Shown: positions 37,752-48,626 of the stretch, in pieces | Layout: the number at the start of each line of letters is the position of its first letter | How positions within the stretch are numbered: the first letter of the stretch is position 1 | NCBI GenBank assembly: GCA_017557345.1 | Contig: JAFYZR010000119.1 | Location: 1 to 55,300 of the forward strand | Origin: Paludibacteraceae bacterium | GTDB lineage: Bacteria; Bacteroidota; Bacteroidia; Bacteroidales; Paludibacteraceae | DNA: 55,300 nt | Direction of reading: 5' to 3' | Notes under the pieces: generated by a model | What the model saw: only the letters and a program-made list of their open reading frames with translations | Told to the model about the DNA's origin: nothing | The model's database searches: none | Program-made: the position numbers and the translations under genes

Positions 37752-37904
37752 GATAGAACAAAAATCTGGGAGTTCCTTTCCGAATCTATGACTGATAAAC
37801 AGAAGAAAGACAAGATATCAAATTTTTTAAAGAAAATGAAAAAAGCTCAAATAATTGATACAACAGGTAAAGGACCTTATGCTAAATGGTATTTGGTAAA
37901 GTAA
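37752..37904 (+). pseudogene. C-terminal gene remnant (winged-helix tail)
   Basis: In frame directly after the preceding TAA, the sequence codes for RTKIWEFLSESMTDKQKKDK, then ISNFLKKMKKAQIID and GPYAKWYLVK before a stop. This is the pattern of the C-terminal winged helix of AlbA_2/Fic-like ATP-binding proteins. No start codon gives a sensible full domain (the first ATG, 37788, leaves 38 residues). Best read as the tail of a gene lost by deletion. A translated small protein is possible but less likely. Confidence 0.5.
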
Positions 37905-38206
37905 TTTGCCGTTAATTTTACTTTATTATTTAATTGTATAATAATGATATTGTTTTGTAAATGATTGAATTGTAGATAATTATAATAAAGTAAATATTTG
38001 AGAAATAGGTAATGAAAGTATATGAAAACTATACCGAATAGAGTTAATGGATTATATATAAATGAATCACGACTCGCACAAAGGAGATATTAAAAAAGAT
38101 TGAGAAAAAATACAAAGTAAAAAATGGTAGAAAATAGTTCAAATGTGATATGCAAAAAAATATATTGAATTGGCGGACGAGGAATAGTGAGATTGCTAAC
38201 TAAAGA
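37905..38206. other. A+T-rich gene-free stretch (302 bp) before the nucleosidase-STAND gene
   Basis: No gene and no clear Bacteroidota promoter. Mostly A/T runs; GGCGGACGAGGA (38171-38182) recurs at 48793-48804 before a glycosyltransferase gene, the only recognisable shared word. Confidence 0.5.
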
Positions 38207-39832
38207 ATGATAATGAAAAACTATCAAGACATACAAAAGACTGACATTGATGTACAAAACTTCAATTTCCTAATTGTAACTGCTACAAAGATAGAAACGG
38301 AGTCCCTGCATAATGTGATGTCTGGAACCATACTGCGAATAGTTGTTGGTGACAACACATATTATTTAGGGCATATTGGTCTGTATAATATTATAAATGT
38401 CCAATGTAGCCAAATGGGAAGCCTTGCCCCTGGAGGATCTTCGCAAACTGTGAATGCGGCTTTGAAAGAGTGGAGTGGAATAAAAGCAGTTATCATGGTT
38501 GGAATTTGTTTCGGTTTTGATGAGGATAAACAACAAATAGGCGATGTTATTGTTTCCAAATCCATCCGAAACTATGAAACCCGTCGTGTCGGGAAAGATT
38601 GTGAAATCCCTCGTGGAAACACCTATCAAGCAGATTCGTGTTTGATGAATGCATTTAGTAACCTTATGCTATCATGGGAGAATATTGGTATAGATGATAA
38701 GAAGAAGAATCTGATAATAGGTGATTATATTTCGGGTGAACAGTTAGTCGATAACATAGAGGTGCGCGAAAAATTGCACACAGAGAGTCCAGAAGCCAAA
38801 GCAGGCGAGATGGAGGGTAACGGTTTAGTCGCATCTTGTGAGTCTGCACGCAAACCATGGATTTTAGTAAAAGCTATTTGTGATTTTGCAGACGGCAATA
38901 AAAGCAAAGAAAAAGAAAAAAAACAATTGATAGCTGCTACATCTGCAGTTCGTTGTTGTGAAGCTGCGCTCGGGCTAGTAGCCGCCTATGAGTCAATAGG
39001 CATTTCTATAGCGACGGATATAAAGCAATATGATGGTAACTTTTCGCAACATGATAAGGTCGAAAATTATGACGTACTCTTTGAATTATATAGAAAAGAT
39101 TATGCGCCATATTTCCTGAATAGAGAGATTGATAGGACTGTGGAGTCCTATCTTACAAGTCATAGCATATGGATATATGGTGAGTCTGGTGTAGGTAAGA
39201 GTACATCCATATCCCATGCACTACTATCTAAAAATCGAGAAATAGTCCTTATCAACATGGCAGGAATACCAGAGAATAGTTCACTTGAAGAAATATTCGA
39301 ATGGATATACAACGAGGTGGCTGGGGTAGTAGGTGAAACATCAATAGTTCCTGAATCATATCAGTTATGTATTAAGAAAATCATAGAACTATTAGACACT
39401 CATTATTCTGGACAATCCGTGTATGTACTTGTTGAGGAAATTCCATTTTCTGGTGAAAGTTTCTGCAATTTCGTAAATTCGTTTTCTTCACTCGTGGTTT
39501 CAAATAAATTAACAGGTAAATCCGCTGATGTTCATTTTGTGCTTTCATCGATAGATAATCCGATCCCGTATATTATTAAGTCGATGCAAAAGATAAAGAG
39601 CATGGTGAAGTTTTTGCATTTCGATATATGGACAGAGGATGAATGTAACTCCTTAATAGATCTTATCGGACAGAATATCACAGTTCCGCATGTGAGCGAC
39701 CGTGCTGATATGATAACAAGATGCGGTAATCTGCCACGTCCCATTAAATCAGTATTTCGAGAAGTTTATCAAACTGGTTTTGCAAACGAACTGGATGCGC
39801 ATACTATTAATAAAATACTAACCCGTTTATAA
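38207..39832 (+). CDS. Nucleoside phosphorylase/nucleosidase domain fused to a STAND-type NTPase
   Basis: 541-residue fusion. Residues about 18-265 are a PNP/UDP-phosphorylase (MTAN-like) fold: LIVTATKIETESL start, GSLAPGGSS, GICFGFDE, the ribose-binding M202-E203-G204, and the catalytic-type Asp226 in CDFAD. Active-site residues look intact, so it may cleave a nucleoside or nucleotide. Residues about 300-541 are a P-loop NTPase with Walker A G325-ESGVGK331-S332 and a hydrophobic LVEEIPFSG Walker B-like strand. Fusions of this domain to STAND NTPases are known from conflict/defence proteins. The stop abuts the next ATG (TAAATG), so the two genes are co-translated. No promoter recognised. Function as defence effector is inferred. 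Confidence 0.75.
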   Translation: MIMKNYQDIQKTDIDVQNFNFLIVTATKIETESLHNVMSGTILRIVVGDNTYYLGHIGLYNIINVQCSQMGSLAPGGSSQTVNAALKEWSGIKAVIMVGICFGFDEDKQQIGDVIVSKSIRNYETRRVGKDCEIPRGNTYQADSCLMNAFSNLMLSWENIGIDDKKKNLIIGDYISGEQLVDNIEVREKLHTESPEAKAGEMEGNGLVASCESARKPWILVKAICDFADGNKSKEKEKKQLIAATSAVRCCEAALGLVAAYESIGISIATDIKQYDGNFSQHDKVENYDVLFELYRKDYAPYFLNREIDRTVESYLTSHSIWIYGESGVGKSTSISHALLSKNREIVLINMAGIPENSSLEEIFEWIYNEVAGVVGETSIVPESYQLCIKKIIELLDTHYSGQSVYVLVEEIPFSGESFCNFVNSFSSLVVSNKLTGKSADVHFVLSSIDNPIPYIIKSMQKIKSMVKFLHFDIWTEDECNSLIDLIGQNITVPHVSDRADMITRCGNLPRPIKSVFREVYQTGFANELDAHTINKILTRL

Positions 39833-42400
39833 ATGGCAACAGAACTAAAGTCTTATACAATAGTACCAGACAGCCTTTACGTTGAACGAAAGGCCGATAT
39901 ACAACTGCATAATATTGTAGAAGCTATGCAGCGCCCTGGATATGTGCTTGTGTCTAGGCAAATGGGAAAAACAAATCTTCTTCTTAAAACCAAACGAAAA
40001 TGGGAAAATGACAAGGATTTGTATGTGTACATTGATATGTCAAATGTTAATGAGACCGAAAAAGAATGTTTTCAGTCTTTAATAGATACTGCTATTGACA
40101 CACATGAAGATATTTTGGGTCATGCAAGAGAACGTATACAAGACTTAAGGAGAATAAATATTACGAAGAGTCCAGTACAAGCTCACAATGAAGAATTACG
40201 AGAACTACTTAAAATAACTCCAAGAAAATTGGTGTTTATTTTGGATGAGATAGATTCACTGACCCGGACATCCTTTTCGGATAATGTATTCTCTCAAATA
40301 CGGAGTATCTATTTCAGTCGAGTTAATTATCCTGTTTTGGAAAAGTTAACATATGTGTTGTCAGGTGTTGTTGAGCCTACTGAGATTATTAAAAATCCAA
40401 AGATATCGCCATTCAATATTGGCGAAAAAATACTTCTGGATGACTTTAGTTATGAAGAATACATGTCTTTTATTAAAAAGGCTAGTTTGGAAAACTTTGA
40501 GAAAGACGTTATAGAAAGGATATACTATTGGACAGGCGGTAATCCTCGTATGACATGGGATGTTTGCTATGAATTGCAGAACAAGGATACACATACTTCG
40601 GAAACAGTTGACGAGGTTGTAACAAGGTTATATTTTACTGCCTTCGACAAAGCACCTATTGATACGATTCGTAATGTCGTCAAAGAAGACCGTGATCTTA
40701 GAGATGCAATAATACAATTAGCTTATAATAAAGGGAATACATTGTCTGACAAAATAAAAAGTAAACTATATCTTTCAGGTATAGTGAACTATAGTGACAA
40801 CAATGTAAAAATTAAAAATCGTATTATTAATGAGTCTTTATCATTAAGTTGGTTGCAAAAAGTAGAAGAAGAAGAGAAAGGCCTTTTGACATATGCTATT
40901 GAACTTTATAAAAAGGGATTCTATGAAGAGAGTGCGCTAAAGTTTGAAACATATATCAAAAACAATGATATTCCTGAAGACGATGCTTCATATTATTATT
41001 TTTATATGGGGTCATGCTATTATCATCTCAAAGAATTTGAGAAGTCTCTTCGTTATCTAACATTACGACCGACTGACGTTAAGGTGTCAAGTGTGAATTA
41101 TCGCAACGAGAACTTCCTATCCGGAGTTGATTGTCTTAAATTAGGACGCTATCGGGAGGCATTGGTATATTTTGAAAATGTCATGGATGGTGATGCCCGT
41201 GATTGGTATTATTATTCTTCCAAATTAAATTCATTAGCTGCACGAGCTCGTTTAGCCATTGACGACAATGCAGATCTCAAAGAGATAGAGATTGAGTACA
41301 AATCATTGCTTGATTTGCCTGATGGACCGAGAATAGATGATGTAAAGTTGTATGCTGCATATCAACTTGCAGAAATGTATAGTGAAGATGAAAATAATAA
41401 GGATGCTGCCATTAGTTATTATGATTTAGCCCTTTCTTTAGCCCATCCTTCAGACAGGCCGCGCATAGTTTCGGAGAAATTTTATATTGTTGACCAAGAA
41501 AACCGTCAACCATTGATTGACATTTTAGTTGAAGCTATAGAAAACATAGAATCATTATCGGAAACCACAGAGCCCGATAAAGCTCTCGGCATAGATGAGG
41601 ATGTTCTTGCTCAAGTACTCCATATTATATACTCATATGCATACGAAAGATGGGATAAGGTGAAAGGAAAATTGTCTCTCCTTTCACAAACTTACGGAGA
41701 TGCCTTGTTCCTTATATTCTTGAAATCTTCCAACCGAACCGTTGAATTCTTTAGCGAAGGCTCATCCAGACTAATCCTTGAACTTTATGAGCATCATAAT
41801 AGCGCCGAATATCAATTGTCAGAAGATAATGTTCTTTCGGTTTATAAATATAATGCCTTTCTAAATTATACTGATGAATATGCAAGAAAATATCTGACAA
41901 AACTAAAGGGAAGTGATGAGTATATAGACTCTTATGGTTTACTTGTGCTAAAATCATATGCCTTGAATCTATTGGGACGCAAAGATTTTATGATGATAAT
42001 CAGTGAGTTGGAATGGGTAACTGACCGTTATCCTAAAAGTGTAAGTTATCAAGATATTGTTCCTCTTTCCTTGTTCGAGTATGCTCTCATGATATCCTAT
42101 CATAATATACACAATCCCAAGGCATCAGTAGAAACAGCTCAACTCATACTTTCTCATGTAGTTGATGATATTAAGCAGACAAGTGGGCAAAACCAAGACA
42201 CGTTAAAGCAAGTAAAGAATATAGCAGAGAAAGTGCTTTCAATAAATAGGTCTCACGAACCATACCGATCCCCAAAAGTATATGGTCGCAATGACCGAAT
42301 AACGGTACGTTACCATCAAACAGGAGCAATTGTAAAGAAAAAGTATAAGCAATTGGAGGGCGATATAAAGAAAGGAGTTTGTGTAGTAATTGAAGACTAA
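39833..42400 (+). CDS. AAA_35-type ATPase with TPR repeats
   Basis: 855 residues. The N-terminal 300 are an AAA-like (AAA_35, STAND-related) domain: YVERKADIQLHNIV, Walker A variant RQMGK46-T47, Walker B FILDE (Asp138-Glu139), WTGGNPRM near 245. Residues about 360-560 carry TPR-like repeats (ALKFETYIKN, YYFYMGSCYYHLKEFEKSL, SGVDCLKLGRYREALVYFEN). The last 40 residues form a small charged beta-rich tail (NDRITVRYHQTGAIVKK). TPR regions in such proteins often sense a partner or phage protein. It directly follows the nucleosidase-STAND gene, with which it probably acts. I know of no described system with this exact pair. Confidence 0.75.
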   Translation: MATELKSYTIVPDSLYVERKADIQLHNIVEAMQRPGYVLVSRQMGKTNLLLKTKRKWENDKDLYVYIDMSNVNETEKECFQSLIDTAIDTHEDILGHARERIQDLRRINITKSPVQAHNEELRELLKITPRKLVFILDEIDSLTRTSFSDNVFSQIRSIYFSRVNYPVLEKLTYVLSGVVEPTEIIKNPKISPFNIGEKILLDDFSYEEYMSFIKKASLENFEKDVIERIYYWTGGNPRMTWDVCYELQNKDTHTSETVDEVVTRLYFTAFDKAPIDTIRNVVKEDRDLRDAIIQLAYNKGNTLSDKIKSKLYLSGIVNYSDNNVKIKNRIINESLSLSWLQKVEEEEKGLLTYAIELYKKGFYEESALKFETYIKNNDIPEDDASYYYFYMGSCYYHLKEFEKSLRYLTLRPTDVKVSSVNYRNENFLSGVDCLKLGRYREALVYFENVMDGDARDWYYYSSKLNSLAARARLAIDDNADLKEIEIEYKSLLDLPDGPRIDDVKLYAAYQLAEMYSEDENNKDAAISYYDLALSLAHPSDRPRIVSEKFYIVDQENRQPLIDILVEAIENIESLSETTEPDKALGIDEDVLAQVLHIIYSYAYERWDKVKGKLSLLSQTYGDALFLIFLKSSNRTVEFFSEGSSRLILELYEHHNSAEYQLSEDNVLSVYKYNAFLNYTDEYARKYLTKLKGSDEYIDSYGLLVLKSYALNLLGRKDFMMIISELEWVTDRYPKSVSYQDIVPLSLFEYALMISYHNIHNPKASVETAQLILSHVVDDIKQTSGQNQDTLKQVKNIAEKVLSINRSHEPYRSPKVYGRNDRITVRYHQTGAIVKKKYKQLEGDIKKGVCVVIED

Positions 42401-42554
42401 ATCTTATTGTTTCGAAAAGATTGAAGTTCAAATTAATTGTGAAATACTATAGGAAAATAGTTTCGTAAATGAATATAAGCAAGAGATTCTGCACTATACA
42501 AATTGGTTGGGAAGATACATAAACATAATATTAAAAAACAAAATAGATACTTTT

Positions 42555-43448
42555 ATGGCATCATTCGAATTTAATCCAATAGCCGATTGTGTGACATTGC
42601 GTATTAAATGCCCCAAATGTGGGGAAGAATTCCTAACAGATGGCATGGGCGTTCCATCTCCAGATTGGACGGCGGAAACACATCATGATAGTGTACAAGA
42701 TGAAGAATATGAGCAGCAATGTGATAATTGTGGTGAACTTTTTGACGTTACGTTGTATAATGGCTTTTATGGTGGTGACGGAGAAATTGAAGTGGTAGAT
42801 AGTGAGGTGGATATTGACAATAGTAATATACTTGAGGTAATCGAAGATTTTTCTGAAAATGAAAGTTACGATTATGATAAAGAGTTGTTTGATGCAAGTC
42901 ATCAGGAAATAAAACAATTAGTGGATGCTATTGAGCCTTTATCGAACGATGTAAAAGATAAGTTATACAAAATGTTATACGCCAAAGCGATTACTAATCT
43001 CGAAACATATTTAGGAGATACGTTAAAGAAATATGTATTGGAGGAAGAACAATATTTGCGTTTGTTTGTGGAACAATATAAGCCTTATAAAGATGAAACT
43101 TTCCCTTTGTGTGAGATTTATCATAGACTTGACACAATCAAAGATAGAGTAAGACAAACTCTAAATGAGTTGATGTATCATAATCTAGGCAAATTAAAAG
43201 GAATATATTTAGAAGTACTTAATGTGGATTTCGGGGATATAAAACAGTTAGCAAGTGCAGTTAATATTCGTCATGATATAGTTCATAGGAATGGGAAAGA
43301 CAAAGATGGTAATGAACGCCATATAACTAAAAGTGAAGTAATCGAAGTGGCTGATATGGTGAATGAATTTATATATTCAGTTGATTCTTCTCTCCCGATA
43401 TTACCATCAAGTATTGATCAATATGTAAGTGAAGATGAAATATTTTAA
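42555..43448 (+). CDS. Zinc-ribbon HEPN-domain protein (putative ribonuclease)
   Basis: 297 residues from ATG 42555 (an in-frame TTG 16 codons earlier is possible). An N-terminal zinc ribbon with Cys19-x2-Cys22 and Cys56-x2-Cys59, then an acidic linker (about 70-110), then an all-helical HEPN-like domain ending with R239-x4-H244 in IRHDIVHRNG, the catalytic R-x4-6-H pattern of HEPN ribonucleases of the RiboL-PSP/DUF4145 kind. Such domains are frequent toxin effectors in defence and toxin-antitoxin systems. It lies 154 bases after the AAA_35-TPR gene on the same strand and closes the cassette. Nuclease activity and linkage to the upstream pair are inferred. Confidence 0.72.
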   Translation: MASFEFNPIADCVTLRIKCPKCGEEFLTDGMGVPSPDWTAETHHDSVQDEEYEQQCDNCGELFDVTLYNGFYGGDGEIEVVDSEVDIDNSNILEVIEDFSENESYDYDKELFDASHQEIKQLVDAIEPLSNDVKDKLYKMLYAKAITNLETYLGDTLKKYVLEEEQYLRLFVEQYKPYKDETFPLCEIYHRLDTIKDRVRQTLNELMYHNLGKLKGIYLEVLNVDFGDIKQLASAVNIRHDIVHRNGKDKDGNERHITKSEVIEVADMVNEFIYSVDSSLPILPSSIDQYVSEDEIF

Positions 43449-44489: not shown

Positions 44490-44731
44490 AAATAAGAGAT
44501 ATGAGAGACCAATTATTACAAATCCTGACGGACTTGCGTCCGGAATTTGATTTCACAGAGGATGTGAATTTTATCGAAGAAGGAATGTTGGATTCCTTTG
44601 ACATGGTTGCTCTTGTAGCTGACCTTGAGAATGGTTTTGGAGTGAAGATTGACGGTGTGGACATCGTGCCGGAGAACTTCTGCTCGTTAGAGGCATTGGA
44701 GAACTTAATCAATAATAGCAAAAAAGCCTGA
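44486..44731 (+). CDS. Acyl carrier protein, copy 1
   Basis: 81-residue acidic four-helix carrier protein. The phosphopantetheine serine is Ser37 in GMLDSFDMVALV; helix 3 region GVKIDGVDIVPENFCSLEAL. It needs activation by a phosphopantetheinyl transferase such as the one at 6863. Start overlaps the formyltransferase stop; its stop TGATG overlaps the ketoacyl synthase start. Cargo could be the acyl chain built by that synthase or an amino acid from the ligases. Confidence 0.9.
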   Translation: MKIRDMRDQLLQILTDLRPEFDFTEDVNFIEEGMLDSFDMVALVADLENGFGVKIDGVDIVPENFCSLEALENLINNSKKA

Positions 44732-45794
44732 TGGATTTCTATTTTGAACATAAGCGAATAAGCGGTATTCTGACGGTTCTGCCGAAACGCGTCGTGACAT
44801 TTGAGGAGGAAATTGCCAATTATAATTTCTCTCCTGCTCGTACGATGAAGCTGAAAGTGGCAATGGGTTATAAGGAGCACCGCGTAGCAGCAGAAGGACA
44901 GTGCTCTTCCGACTTTTGCGTATATGGATTGCAGTATCTGTTTGACAACAATCTGTTGCGGAAAGAAGATATTGATGCACTTATCTTCGTGTCGCAGACG
45001 CCGGATTATTTCATGCCTCCTACCTGCAACTTGATTCAGGGACGTTTGGAGTTGAAGCAGGATATGGTATGCTTGGATATCAACCAAGGATGTGCAGGAT
45101 TTGAGATTGGTTTGTTGCAAGCGCTGATGCTGCTTGACCAACCTTCTATAAATAAGGTGGTGCTACTGAATGCCGATGTACTCAGTCCGAAAGTAAGTGA
45201 CCAAGACCGGAACTCCAAACCGCTTGAGGTGACGCTGCTGCTGTTACTATCATTGAGAAAACGGAGGAAAAGTCACCGATTTGGCTGAATGTGATGATGG
45301 ACGGTACAGGAGCTATGGTGCTGAATATCCCTGCCGGAGGATTCCGCATGCCTTCGACTCCGGAAACAGCTATCATGCATGAAGATGAAGCAGGAAACTT
45401 ACGTTCGTTGGACAATCTGGTGATGCAAGGAGATAAGGTGTTTAATTTCGTGCAACGCGAGGTGCCACCGATGATTGAGCATCTGAAAGAACAAGCCGGA
45501 ATAACGGATGAGGATATTGATTGGTACATGTTCCATCAGCCGAACAAATTCATGCTGCAAAAGTTAGCGGAGAAACTCGGTGTGGACTTTGCTAAAATGC
45601 CGGCAAATATCGTCGAGAACTTCGGTAATGCAAGTGGTGTAACGGTGCCGACTTGTATCAGTTATAACCTTGGCGAACAGGTAGTGAATGGCACAGCCAA
45701 AGTGTGCATGGCCGGATTTGGCGTAGGACTGACTTGGTCCTCCGCATATATGGAATTAGGGAATTTGAAGTATAACAATATAATTGAAATGTAA
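44731..45794 (+). pseudogene. 3-oxoacyl-ACP synthase III family gene with a one-base frameshift
   Basis: Two frames together give a full KAS III of about 354 residues. Frame 1 runs to about 45225 (Cys121 in INQGCAGFE, ending RNSKPL); the frame lacking one base continues from about 45228 (GDAAAVTIIEKTEEKSPIWL, then FHQPNKFMLQKL with the catalytic His, and ENFGNASG with the Asn). The C-H-N triad is therefore preserved, and both parts align smoothly, with one base missing near 45226. There is no homopolymer or slippery site. Either a real recent loss-of-function, a phase-like variant, or a sequencing error. Family: ketoacyl synthases found in Bacteroidota O-antigen loci. Next gene is a second carrier protein. 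Confidence 0.8.
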
Positions 45795-47684: not shown

Positions 47685-48626
47685 ATGTGTGATTTAGTCA
47701 TAGAAGGGAAACCGATTGAAAAACTTATAGAGGTAGTGAGTAAGGCTATTGGCGTGGTATATGAGCCTCGTCAAATGGTGCGTATGGCAAAGGCAGAAGC
47801 TGAAGCAGAACGTATCAAGGCTATCGAACATGCAAAAACAGAGGCATTAATTGCGGGAGATGAAGCAAAAGTCAATGAGTTGTCACTAATAGAGAAACGC
47901 ATAGTCGCTAAGGAAGAAAAACGCAAAAAAAATATAGAGAAGGTTATAGGGGTTGCAACTCAGACGATTAAGGATGAAGCTTATGTGTCGACCGAACCCG
48001 TGAACCTGGATTGGGCTACGCGCTTCTTTGATATCGTTCAGGATATCTCTGATGAACAGATGCAAGATTTGTGGGGAAGAATTTTAGCAGGAGAGGTAAA
48101 GCGACCACATTCCTATTCGTTGCGGACATTGGAAGTATTAAGAAACATTACGAGTGAAGAAGCACAACTATTTGAGAGAATAGCACAGTATGTGATGTTT
48201 GATAGAAATCATTTTATTTATTATGACTCGTCGCTGAAAGATTATAATATCGAAATGACATATGAAGATATTGCAAAGTTAATAGAAATCGGATTTTTGC
48301 AGGCAGGTAGTTCGGTACAAGCAAACTTACACAATAATCAAGGAGAAGTGGTAAAAAATGCTATAGCTTATGGAAACTATATTGTTTTGATTGACCAACC
48401 TCCTGTACATCCTATAGTATCTTTTTCGGTTTTTCCTTTAACAAAAACAGGAAGTGAGTTGTTCCGGTTGTTAACCATAACATCCAATGAAAATTATCTC
48501 AAGTGCTTTGCGAATAGTTTAAAGAAAAGGTATGGAAAATTGGTGATACAATATGCTGATCTTAAGTATGTAGATTATGAAAAGAATGAATATGTTTACG
48601 ATGAGGAAACAATAAAGAATCTATAA
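47685..48626 (+). CDS. DUF2806 / TIGR03899-like protein
   Basis: 313 residues. N-terminal third is a charged coiled-coil-prone segment (RMAKAEAEAERIKAIEHAKT); then the conserved core around EPVNLDWATRFFDIVQDISD and MQDLWGRILAGEVKRPHSYS, then a variable C-terminal domain. The core fits the DUF2806 (TIGR03899) family, which I know only as a protein of unknown function. No glycan role is evident, and it sits alone among glycosyltransferases, beside a truncated gene, so it is a candidate cargo gene inserted in the locus. The assignment is by pattern recall, so moderate. Confidence 0.62.
   Translation: MCDLVIEGKPIEKLIEVVSKAIGVVYEPRQMVRMAKAEAEAERIKAIEHAKTEALIAGDEAKVNELSLIEKRIVAKEEKRKKNIEKVIGVATQTIKDEAYVSTEPVNLDWATRFFDIVQDISDEQMQDLWGRILAGEVKRPHSYSLRTLEVLRNITSEEAQLFERIAQYVMFDRNHFIYYDSSLKDYNIEMTYEDIAKLIEIGFLQAGSSVQANLHNNQGEVVKNAIAYGNYIVLIDQPPVHPIVSFSVFPLTKTGSELFRLLTITSNENYLKCFANSLKKRYGKLVIQYADLKYVDYEKNEYVYDEETIKNL

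Follow-up and report, generated by a model that had tools for sequence, protein, structure and literature searches.

The 55,300-nucleotide contig JAFYZR010000119.1 of the Paludibacteraceae bacterium assembly GCA_017557345.1 (the window, that is, the whole stretch of DNA analysed) carries two adjacent genes that probably make up a split anti-phage system of the NLR-like (STAND) kind, one half each. The product of gene 1 joins a nucleosidase domain to a STAND-like P-loop NTPase, and that of gene 2 is an AAA_35 STAND-like NTPase with TPR repeats. A sequence-only reading of the same DNA had grouped both with a zinc ribbon-HEPN gene downstream, gene 3, as a candidate three-gene conflict or defence cassette. 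Judged by comparison with related loci, genes 1 and 2 are the conserved pair and the trio with gene 3 is not the unit. The reading is based on a pair that is constant, on NTPases that are homologous and have diverged jointly, on ATPase motifs and catalytic residues that are kept, on effectors that are swapped, and on defence or phage settings at some loci. What we infer from these is a sensor role for gene 2, assembly of the two proteins with each other, the substrate and the effect against phage.

Gene 1 (38213..39832, + strand; 539 amino acids (aa)) was delimited with Pfam PF01048 and an alignment with seven other nucleosidase-type gene 1 proteins. Its nucleosidase domain, with the fold of purine nucleoside phosphorylases (PNP) and methylthioadenosine/S-adenosylhomocysteine nucleosidases (MTAN), spans about residues 18-250 (38264..38962, + strand; Pfam and alignments) and is the putative effector; the match to PF01048 (E 6.9e-12) exceeds the Pfam cut-off. 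Alignment and profile comparison place the NTPase domain at about residues 285-520 (39065..39772, + strand), with Walker A K329, Walker B E408-E409 and a PR motif at 508-509. Its P-loop scores 26.4 bits with AAA_22, below the cut-off of 27 bits. The PADLOC 2023 models matched by gene 1 are those of the candidate family PDC-M60C (3e-13) and of a CBASS PN-superfamily effector (3.6e-12).

Gene 2 (39833..42400, + strand; 855 aa), the probable sensor, was delimited by Pfam and an alignment of relatives. The NTPase domain, about residues 5-330 (39845..40822, + strand; Pfam and alignment), matches AAA_35 above the Pfam cut-off (1.7e-19) and has an RQMGKT Walker A (K46), an ILDEID Walker B and a GNPR motif; RQMGKT is unchanged in 12 out of 12 aligned gene 2 proteins. 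The TPR region, about residues 355-540 (40895..41452, + strand), was placed by Pfam, where each TPR match lies below the cut-off, and by structure-profile matches, the gene 2 profile matching TPR structures from about residue 350. At E values up to 1, neither gene 2 nor gene 3 matched any PADLOC 2023 model, and the gene 2 proteins of loci L020 and L027 matched none at 0.001. The gene 2 protein of L024 is shorter, at 703 aa, and its gene is perhaps broken. The alignment also revealed a C-terminal tail, residues 818-855 (42284..42397, + strand; consensus GRN..VTV.Y..G....KYKKLE.DI..G.C.II), kept from alphaproteobacteria to Bacteroidota and preceded by a much less conserved region. The Pfam scan gave no match in this tail.

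The window contains the three + strand open reading frames (ORFs) of the sequence-only reading at 38207-39832, 39833-42400 and 42507/42555-43448, and the ORF list and Pfam returned the domains and motifs it had named at their sites. Gene 1 numbering is shifted by 2, as we start it at 38213 rather than 38207, and the earlier M202-E203, D226 and K331 are M200-E201, D224 and K329 here. The TAAATG junction of genes 1 and 2, with zero gap, was borne out, as was the spacing of 154 bases between genes 2 and 3 when the ATG at 42555 is used.

Pair loci were found with an alignment of the window and Sphingobium plasmid gene 2 proteins, which yielded at least 12 genome loci (10 strong) and two viral contigs; back-translated patterns of single proteins had picked out nothing. 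Two weak loci, L030 and L031 (gene 2 identity 22-24%), had no gene 1 match upstream and were dropped, so that 10 of the 12 remain. The Sphingobium gene 2 came from a tblastn survey of plasmids with matches in 41 of 72,556 records, of which only the best was opened; this strong relative (L014) follows a gene carrying the gene 1 NTPase. At L014 (6433-7983) the annotated gene 1 start, 6928, omits an alpha/beta hydrolase domain, and the frame is open from 6433. In all 13 strong loci searched, Sphingobium included, gene 2 directly follows a gene 1-type NTPase gene that runs in the same direction, and L039 (genome G504) is a fourteenth. With the window these 14 opened loci with strong gene 2 relatives make 15 pairs, from Bacteroidota, Planctomycetota, alphaproteobacteria and the two viral contigs; the counts of 13, 14 and 15 are those among the matches listed, and more loci may exist. 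Twelve pairs, the window among them and L028, L032 and L039 outside the list, have a gap of -4 to +2 bases between the genes, with starts chosen by us. All 15 gene 1 proteins have a Walker A and an acidic Walker B.

The spread of the pair is patchy. Gene 2 has matches in four of 300 genomes of the family, its own included, three of them confined to short stretches within residues 309-443, and gene 1 in two of the 300 (E 1e-8; own genome included), one over the nucleosidase alone. Searched with the gene 2 alignment, the phylum gave two of 345 genomes including the window's own, or one of 344 others; two candidates per genome were scored and weak relatives could be missed. The same search gave one of 249 genomes in the family of L024 and one of 86 in that of G504, in each case the locus's own genome. 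Phage records gave no match, and a wider viral scan recovered the same two viral contigs and no further ones.

The NTPases of genes 1 and 2 are homologous to each other (hhalign probability 96.8, E 2.8e-10, 204 columns). Over the 15 loci their pairwise identities correlate (r = 0.922), a value reached by none of 10000 permutations. We read the correlation as showing joint inheritance rather than contact, because related hosts alone can yield it. The starred groups common to both NTPase trees are the four pairs with a hydrolase, the two Hymenobacter pairs, and L023/L026/L032. Elsewhere both trees have weak or open forks, and long branches in the gene 1 tree carry a warning.

What varies among the 15 pairs is the N-terminal effector of gene 1, with three fused types recognised by profile and a fourth, a protease, by a match to LmuA models and by eye. 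A nucleosidase is found in eight (the window, L020, L021, L022, L025, L028, L029 and L039), called above the Pfam cut-off for the window and L025 and by similarity to the window protein and shared residues for the others. Four (L014, L024, L027 and L033) begin with an alpha/beta hydrolase, above the Pfam cut-off for DUF676, and one (L026) with an Mrr-like nuclease, above that for Mrr_cat. The N-terminal parts of gene 1 at L026, L032 and L033 match LmuA effector models of PADLOC. At L032 (LmuA match 6.9e-7) gene 1 seems to carry a trypsin-like protease, from an H and a GVSGSG motif spotted by eye, and the upstream gene that overlaps it matches LmuA, DRT-MBL and Avs1a models. L023 has a short gene 1 N-terminus with nothing fused and a separate 137-aa ORF upstream. 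L023, L026 and L032 thus have three different arrangements within one group supported in both trees. Intact Walker A and B, superstructure repeats (the TPR matches being sub-threshold) and a variable N-terminal effector are together what would be expected of a STAND/NLR-like system.

Two of these loci drew observations of their own. At L023 (6665-7983) an N-G-N-N-N-N motif stands both at the end of the 137-aa ORF and at the start of gene 1, and two of 5000 shuffles reach it. The arrangement can be likened to that of amyloid-signalling Bell-NLR neighbours (PMC8086366). That NGNNNN is an amyloid-type signal is an uncertain idea, and we leave it as such because both pieces are asparagine-rich. 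On the viral contig of L032 (5592-7993), a metallo-beta-lactamase (MBL)-type gene overlaps the gene for the trypsin-like (by eye)-NTPase protein, and an integrase-like gene follows gene 2; the locus may offer the nuclease-protease pair one more chassis.

The nucleosidase has kept its catalytic residues. E28, E201, D224, K230, K234 and Q238 are invariant in all eight pair-linked copies. The first three we take to be the equivalents of MTAN E12, E174 and D197. K234 aligns, gap-free, with MTAN F207, presumably the phenylalanine packed against the 5' alkylthio group. At the equivalents of K230, K234 and Q238 the Rhizobium relative L015 is identical, and the housekeeping-like L013 has S, F and S. 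An invariant lysine at a position that is hydrophobic in the housekeeping enzyme suggests a charged 5' group on the substrate, such as a phosphate chain, and the substrate may thus be ATP-like, with ATP or dATP as the likeliest candidates. ATP-destroying nucleosidases are already known as effectors (PMC10952713, PMC11249213). Another nucleosidase conflict system is, to judge from its genes, present on an Agrobacterium plasmid (L016, 4617-10255), where an HNH-nucleosidase-EAD7 protein is followed by a 1155-aa protein and a response regulator.

In the mechanism we propose, gene 2, with its NTPase and TPR superhelix, would detect a signal of infection and co-assemble with the homologous NTPase of gene 1. 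Co-assembly would gather the effector domains at the N-termini of the gene 1 proteins and so switch them on. In this genome the nucleosidase would then cut the base off a purine nucleotide, most probably ATP or dATP, and the loss of nucleotide would starve the cell and stop the phage. Other effectors would sit on the same chassis in relatives, namely a hydrolase, a nuclease and, apparently, a protease paired with a pro-nuclease.

The surroundings of the pair differ from locus to locus. Upstream of L022 lie type I restriction-modification (R-M) genes, upstream of L039 there are genes for MTase_II and AbiEii, and at L021 the first large ORF upstream of the pair is a PDC-S31 gene; the neighbour at L023 is helicase-like, with weaker matches. 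With roles assigned by eye, L032 has a phage repressor-like gene on one side and a tyrosine integrase-like gene on the other, and L033 adjoins a phage repressor-like gene with an integrase-like gene on the same contig. A bulk scan covered 89 of the 127 flanking ORFs that are 130 aa or longer, and 20 ORFs were scanned singly. The bulk scan included strong matches that were not assigned to a locus, for example PDC-S02, and 13 of the 20 scanned singly had no PADLOC match at 1e-6.

Several observations weigh against an anti-phage nucleosidase pair of this kind, or against parts of it. Defence-type neighbours were seen at only four of the 14 loci (L021, L022, L032 with its MBL gene, and L039), a count without a background control, and in Pfam scans the window flanks are glycan-type and accessory genes with no recognised defence genes. 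In the gene 1 tree, where long branches are marked as unsure, only one end branch is longer than that of the window. The L020 gene 1 is counted as a nucleosidase by its similarity to the window protein (4e-57) and has no PF01048 match at E 0.05, and the L032 protease has no Pfam protease match and no solved relative. The conflict-type L016 has K, W and Q at the three positions, so that K234 is not universal among conflict-type relatives, and the reading of K234 comes from a comparison with MTAN-type enzymes. Finally, the significant solved relatives of the nucleosidase are all MTA/SAH (methylthioadenosine/S-adenosylhomocysteine), aminodeoxyfutalosine or similar housekeeping nucleosidases, and for this reason a substrate of one of these housekeeping types is possible. 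Taken further, the same kinship would fit a regulatory or metabolic pair unconnected with phage defence, for instance one that places SAH/MTA salvage under the control of a signal, since the nearest named as well as solved relatives are MTA/SAH nucleosidases. We consider such a pair very doubtful: relatives replace the nucleosidase with a hydrolase, a nuclease and apparently a protease, the spread is patchy, and phage and R-M settings occur at some loci.

Gene 3 (42555..43448, + strand; 297 aa; Pfam, tblastn and alignment) encodes a zinc ribbon-HEPN protein; an in-frame TTG at 42507 is a second possible start. It matches the RiboL-PSP HEPN family PF18735 (5e-7; 30.2 bits for a cut-off of 28.4), the zinc-ribbon matches being sub-threshold. 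The HEPN motif R239-x4-H244 (43269..43286, + strand; alignment) is intact, with R239, D241 and H244 unchanged in all seven rows of an alignment of gene 3 and six relatives, from which the partial matches L006, L007 and L008 were omitted. Gene 3 could belong to one system with the pair in this lineage, in which gene 2 gates, gene 1 depletes nucleotides and the HEPN protein cleaves RNA as a second effector; the common strand, the short spacing, the intact motif and the similarly low guanine-cytosine (GC) content of all three genes (0.377, 0.353 and 0.337 in order; window, 0.439) agree with this. It is nonetheless an improbable arrangement. tblastn of gene 3 found no relative at the 14 other pair loci, giving two chance-level matches (E 0.24 and 0.29), with the sequence at L021 ending about 340 bases past gene 2 and limiting the search there. 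Full-length gene 3 is in none of the 10 whole genomes with the pair, two of which have short zinc-ribbon matches. The trio as a unit was rejected on these counts.

Relatives of gene 3 occur without the pair, in unrelated settings. Matches were found in seven of the 300 family genomes, its own included, and in 754 plasmid records, three of which were opened; at L041 the relative lies beside an Eco57I-type methylase gene. At L040 (8744-11493) and L042 (7201-9754), from the same genus, relatives of gene 3 each overlap a downstream gene, and the proteins of these two downstream genes are not related; Pfam gave no match at 0.01 for either. Gene 3 is probably a separate neighbouring RNase gene outside the system, and its membership in the cassette, as first proposed, was not borne out. 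Asked whether the genes co-occur elsewhere, the comparisons found the pair kept at 14 other loci and the three together at none of them. The other proposals fared better. A role in conflict or defence is supported by the swapped effectors and some of the settings, a nucleosidase effector in gene 1 by PF01048 and the invariant catalytic residues, and a TPR-ATPase as likely sensor in gene 2 by AAA_35 and the TPR-type repeats. The swap of effector domains between loci lies beyond what the window sequence alone could show.

The window is contig C114 in full. The genome has 155 contigs and is listed with 100% completeness and 6.84% contamination, and for these reasons the contig may be misbinned. 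To the left of gene 1 lie an AAA_14-DUF4143 ATPase gene and a small gene of no known function, and to the right of gene 3 a formyltransferase gene. The stretch directly upstream of gene 1 (37752-38206) is very AT-rich (GC 0.257). As an anchor for an empty-site comparison, the formyltransferase had matches in 88 of 100 other genomes of the genus at about 28-36% identity; these are apparently other formyltransferases, and no empty site was read. Further right, a ketoacyl synthase III-type gene is split into two adjacent ORFs (44731-45288 and 45291-45794, the second scanned with Pfam), perhaps a broken gene or a sequencing error, and a DUF2806 gene (47685-48626) lies amid glycosyltransferase genes.

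The pair is likely not to have been described before. None of the top-listed papers, judged by title and opening of the abstract, recognisably deals with it, and AAA_35 and PF14516 are not mentioned in the papers listed, with subscription papers and defence databases after PADLOC 2023 lying outside the scope of the search. Many STAND-effector systems are catalogued in Kaur 2020 and 2021 (PMC7159879, PMC8195603), with no such pair in their accessible parts; the term AAA_35 is nowhere in the text of the former. The statement of the sequence-only reading that no such system is described thus holds for genes 1 and 2, the trio itself not being upheld.

Among the closest known systems are the CARD-NLR systems, such as LypABC of Caulobacter, where an effector-ATPase and an ATPase-TPR protein are encoded together (PMC13236601). 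There LypA is a CARD-trypsin-ATPase, LypB an N-terminal domain-ATPase-TPR protein, and known cases end in lysis or cell death. Gene 1 might accordingly be a LypA and gene 2 a LypB of a system of the LypABC or Lysobacter kind that has lost its CARD, and the resemblance of the L032 gene 1 to a trypsin plus ATPase fits. We think this unlikely. Gene 1 begins with its effector and gene 2 with its NTPase, from about residue 5, which leaves no room for a CARD or for a mutually binding LypB N-terminal domain. Compared by description, the LypA ATPase lacks the Walker residues, whereas all gene 1 NTPases have them; the pair thus differs in having no CARD, no N-terminal adaptor on the TPR protein and intact Walker motifs in the effector protein.

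The split STAND pair that we favour shares single parts with other systems. MBL nuclease-trypsin pairs are described in Avs, Lamassu, Hachiman and DRT systems (PMC12799240), and the overlapping genes at L032 are alike; what is fused there is the gene 1 NTPase, and the accessible part of that paper names no such chassis. If our reading of L032 holds, it is one more setting for such a pair. The LmuA matches recall Lamassu, but the core here is an NTPase pair, LmuB-type genes having been sought through the PADLOC flank scans alone. Like Cap17 and the Detocs effector, gene 1 would use a PF01048 nucleosidase in conflict (PMC10952713, PMC11249213), here fused to the NTPase of a new pair, so that the window would add another carrier of nucleosidase effectors; the two-component kinase and response-regulator genes of Detocs are not among the window neighbours (the AAA_14-DUF4143, small unknown, HEPN and formyltransferase genes), and neither are cyclase genes.

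Known bacterial NLR-like proteins mostly carry effector, NTPase and sensor on one chain. AVAST (Avs) and other STAND-NLR-like immune proteins share with the pair a STAND-type NTPase, a TPR-like sensor region and interchangeable N-terminal effectors, although the Avs models of PADLOC 2023 match neither gene 1 nor gene 2. If our reading is true, a split over two homologous NTPases with a swapped effector would allow the pairing of sensor and executor to be tested in a simple host, and the domains fused to gene 1 would be a route to further effectors. The evidence is evenly poised on whether the pair is a general prokaryotic immune chassis across phyla and prophages, a bacterial counterpart of sensor-helper NLR pairs in which one STAND NTPase bears the sensor and its homologue an interchangeable effector, with nucleosidase, lipase-like, nuclease and protease-pro-nuclease modules loaded independently. 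Avs is a single large STAND protein, and here effector and sensor are carried by two homologous NTPase proteins.

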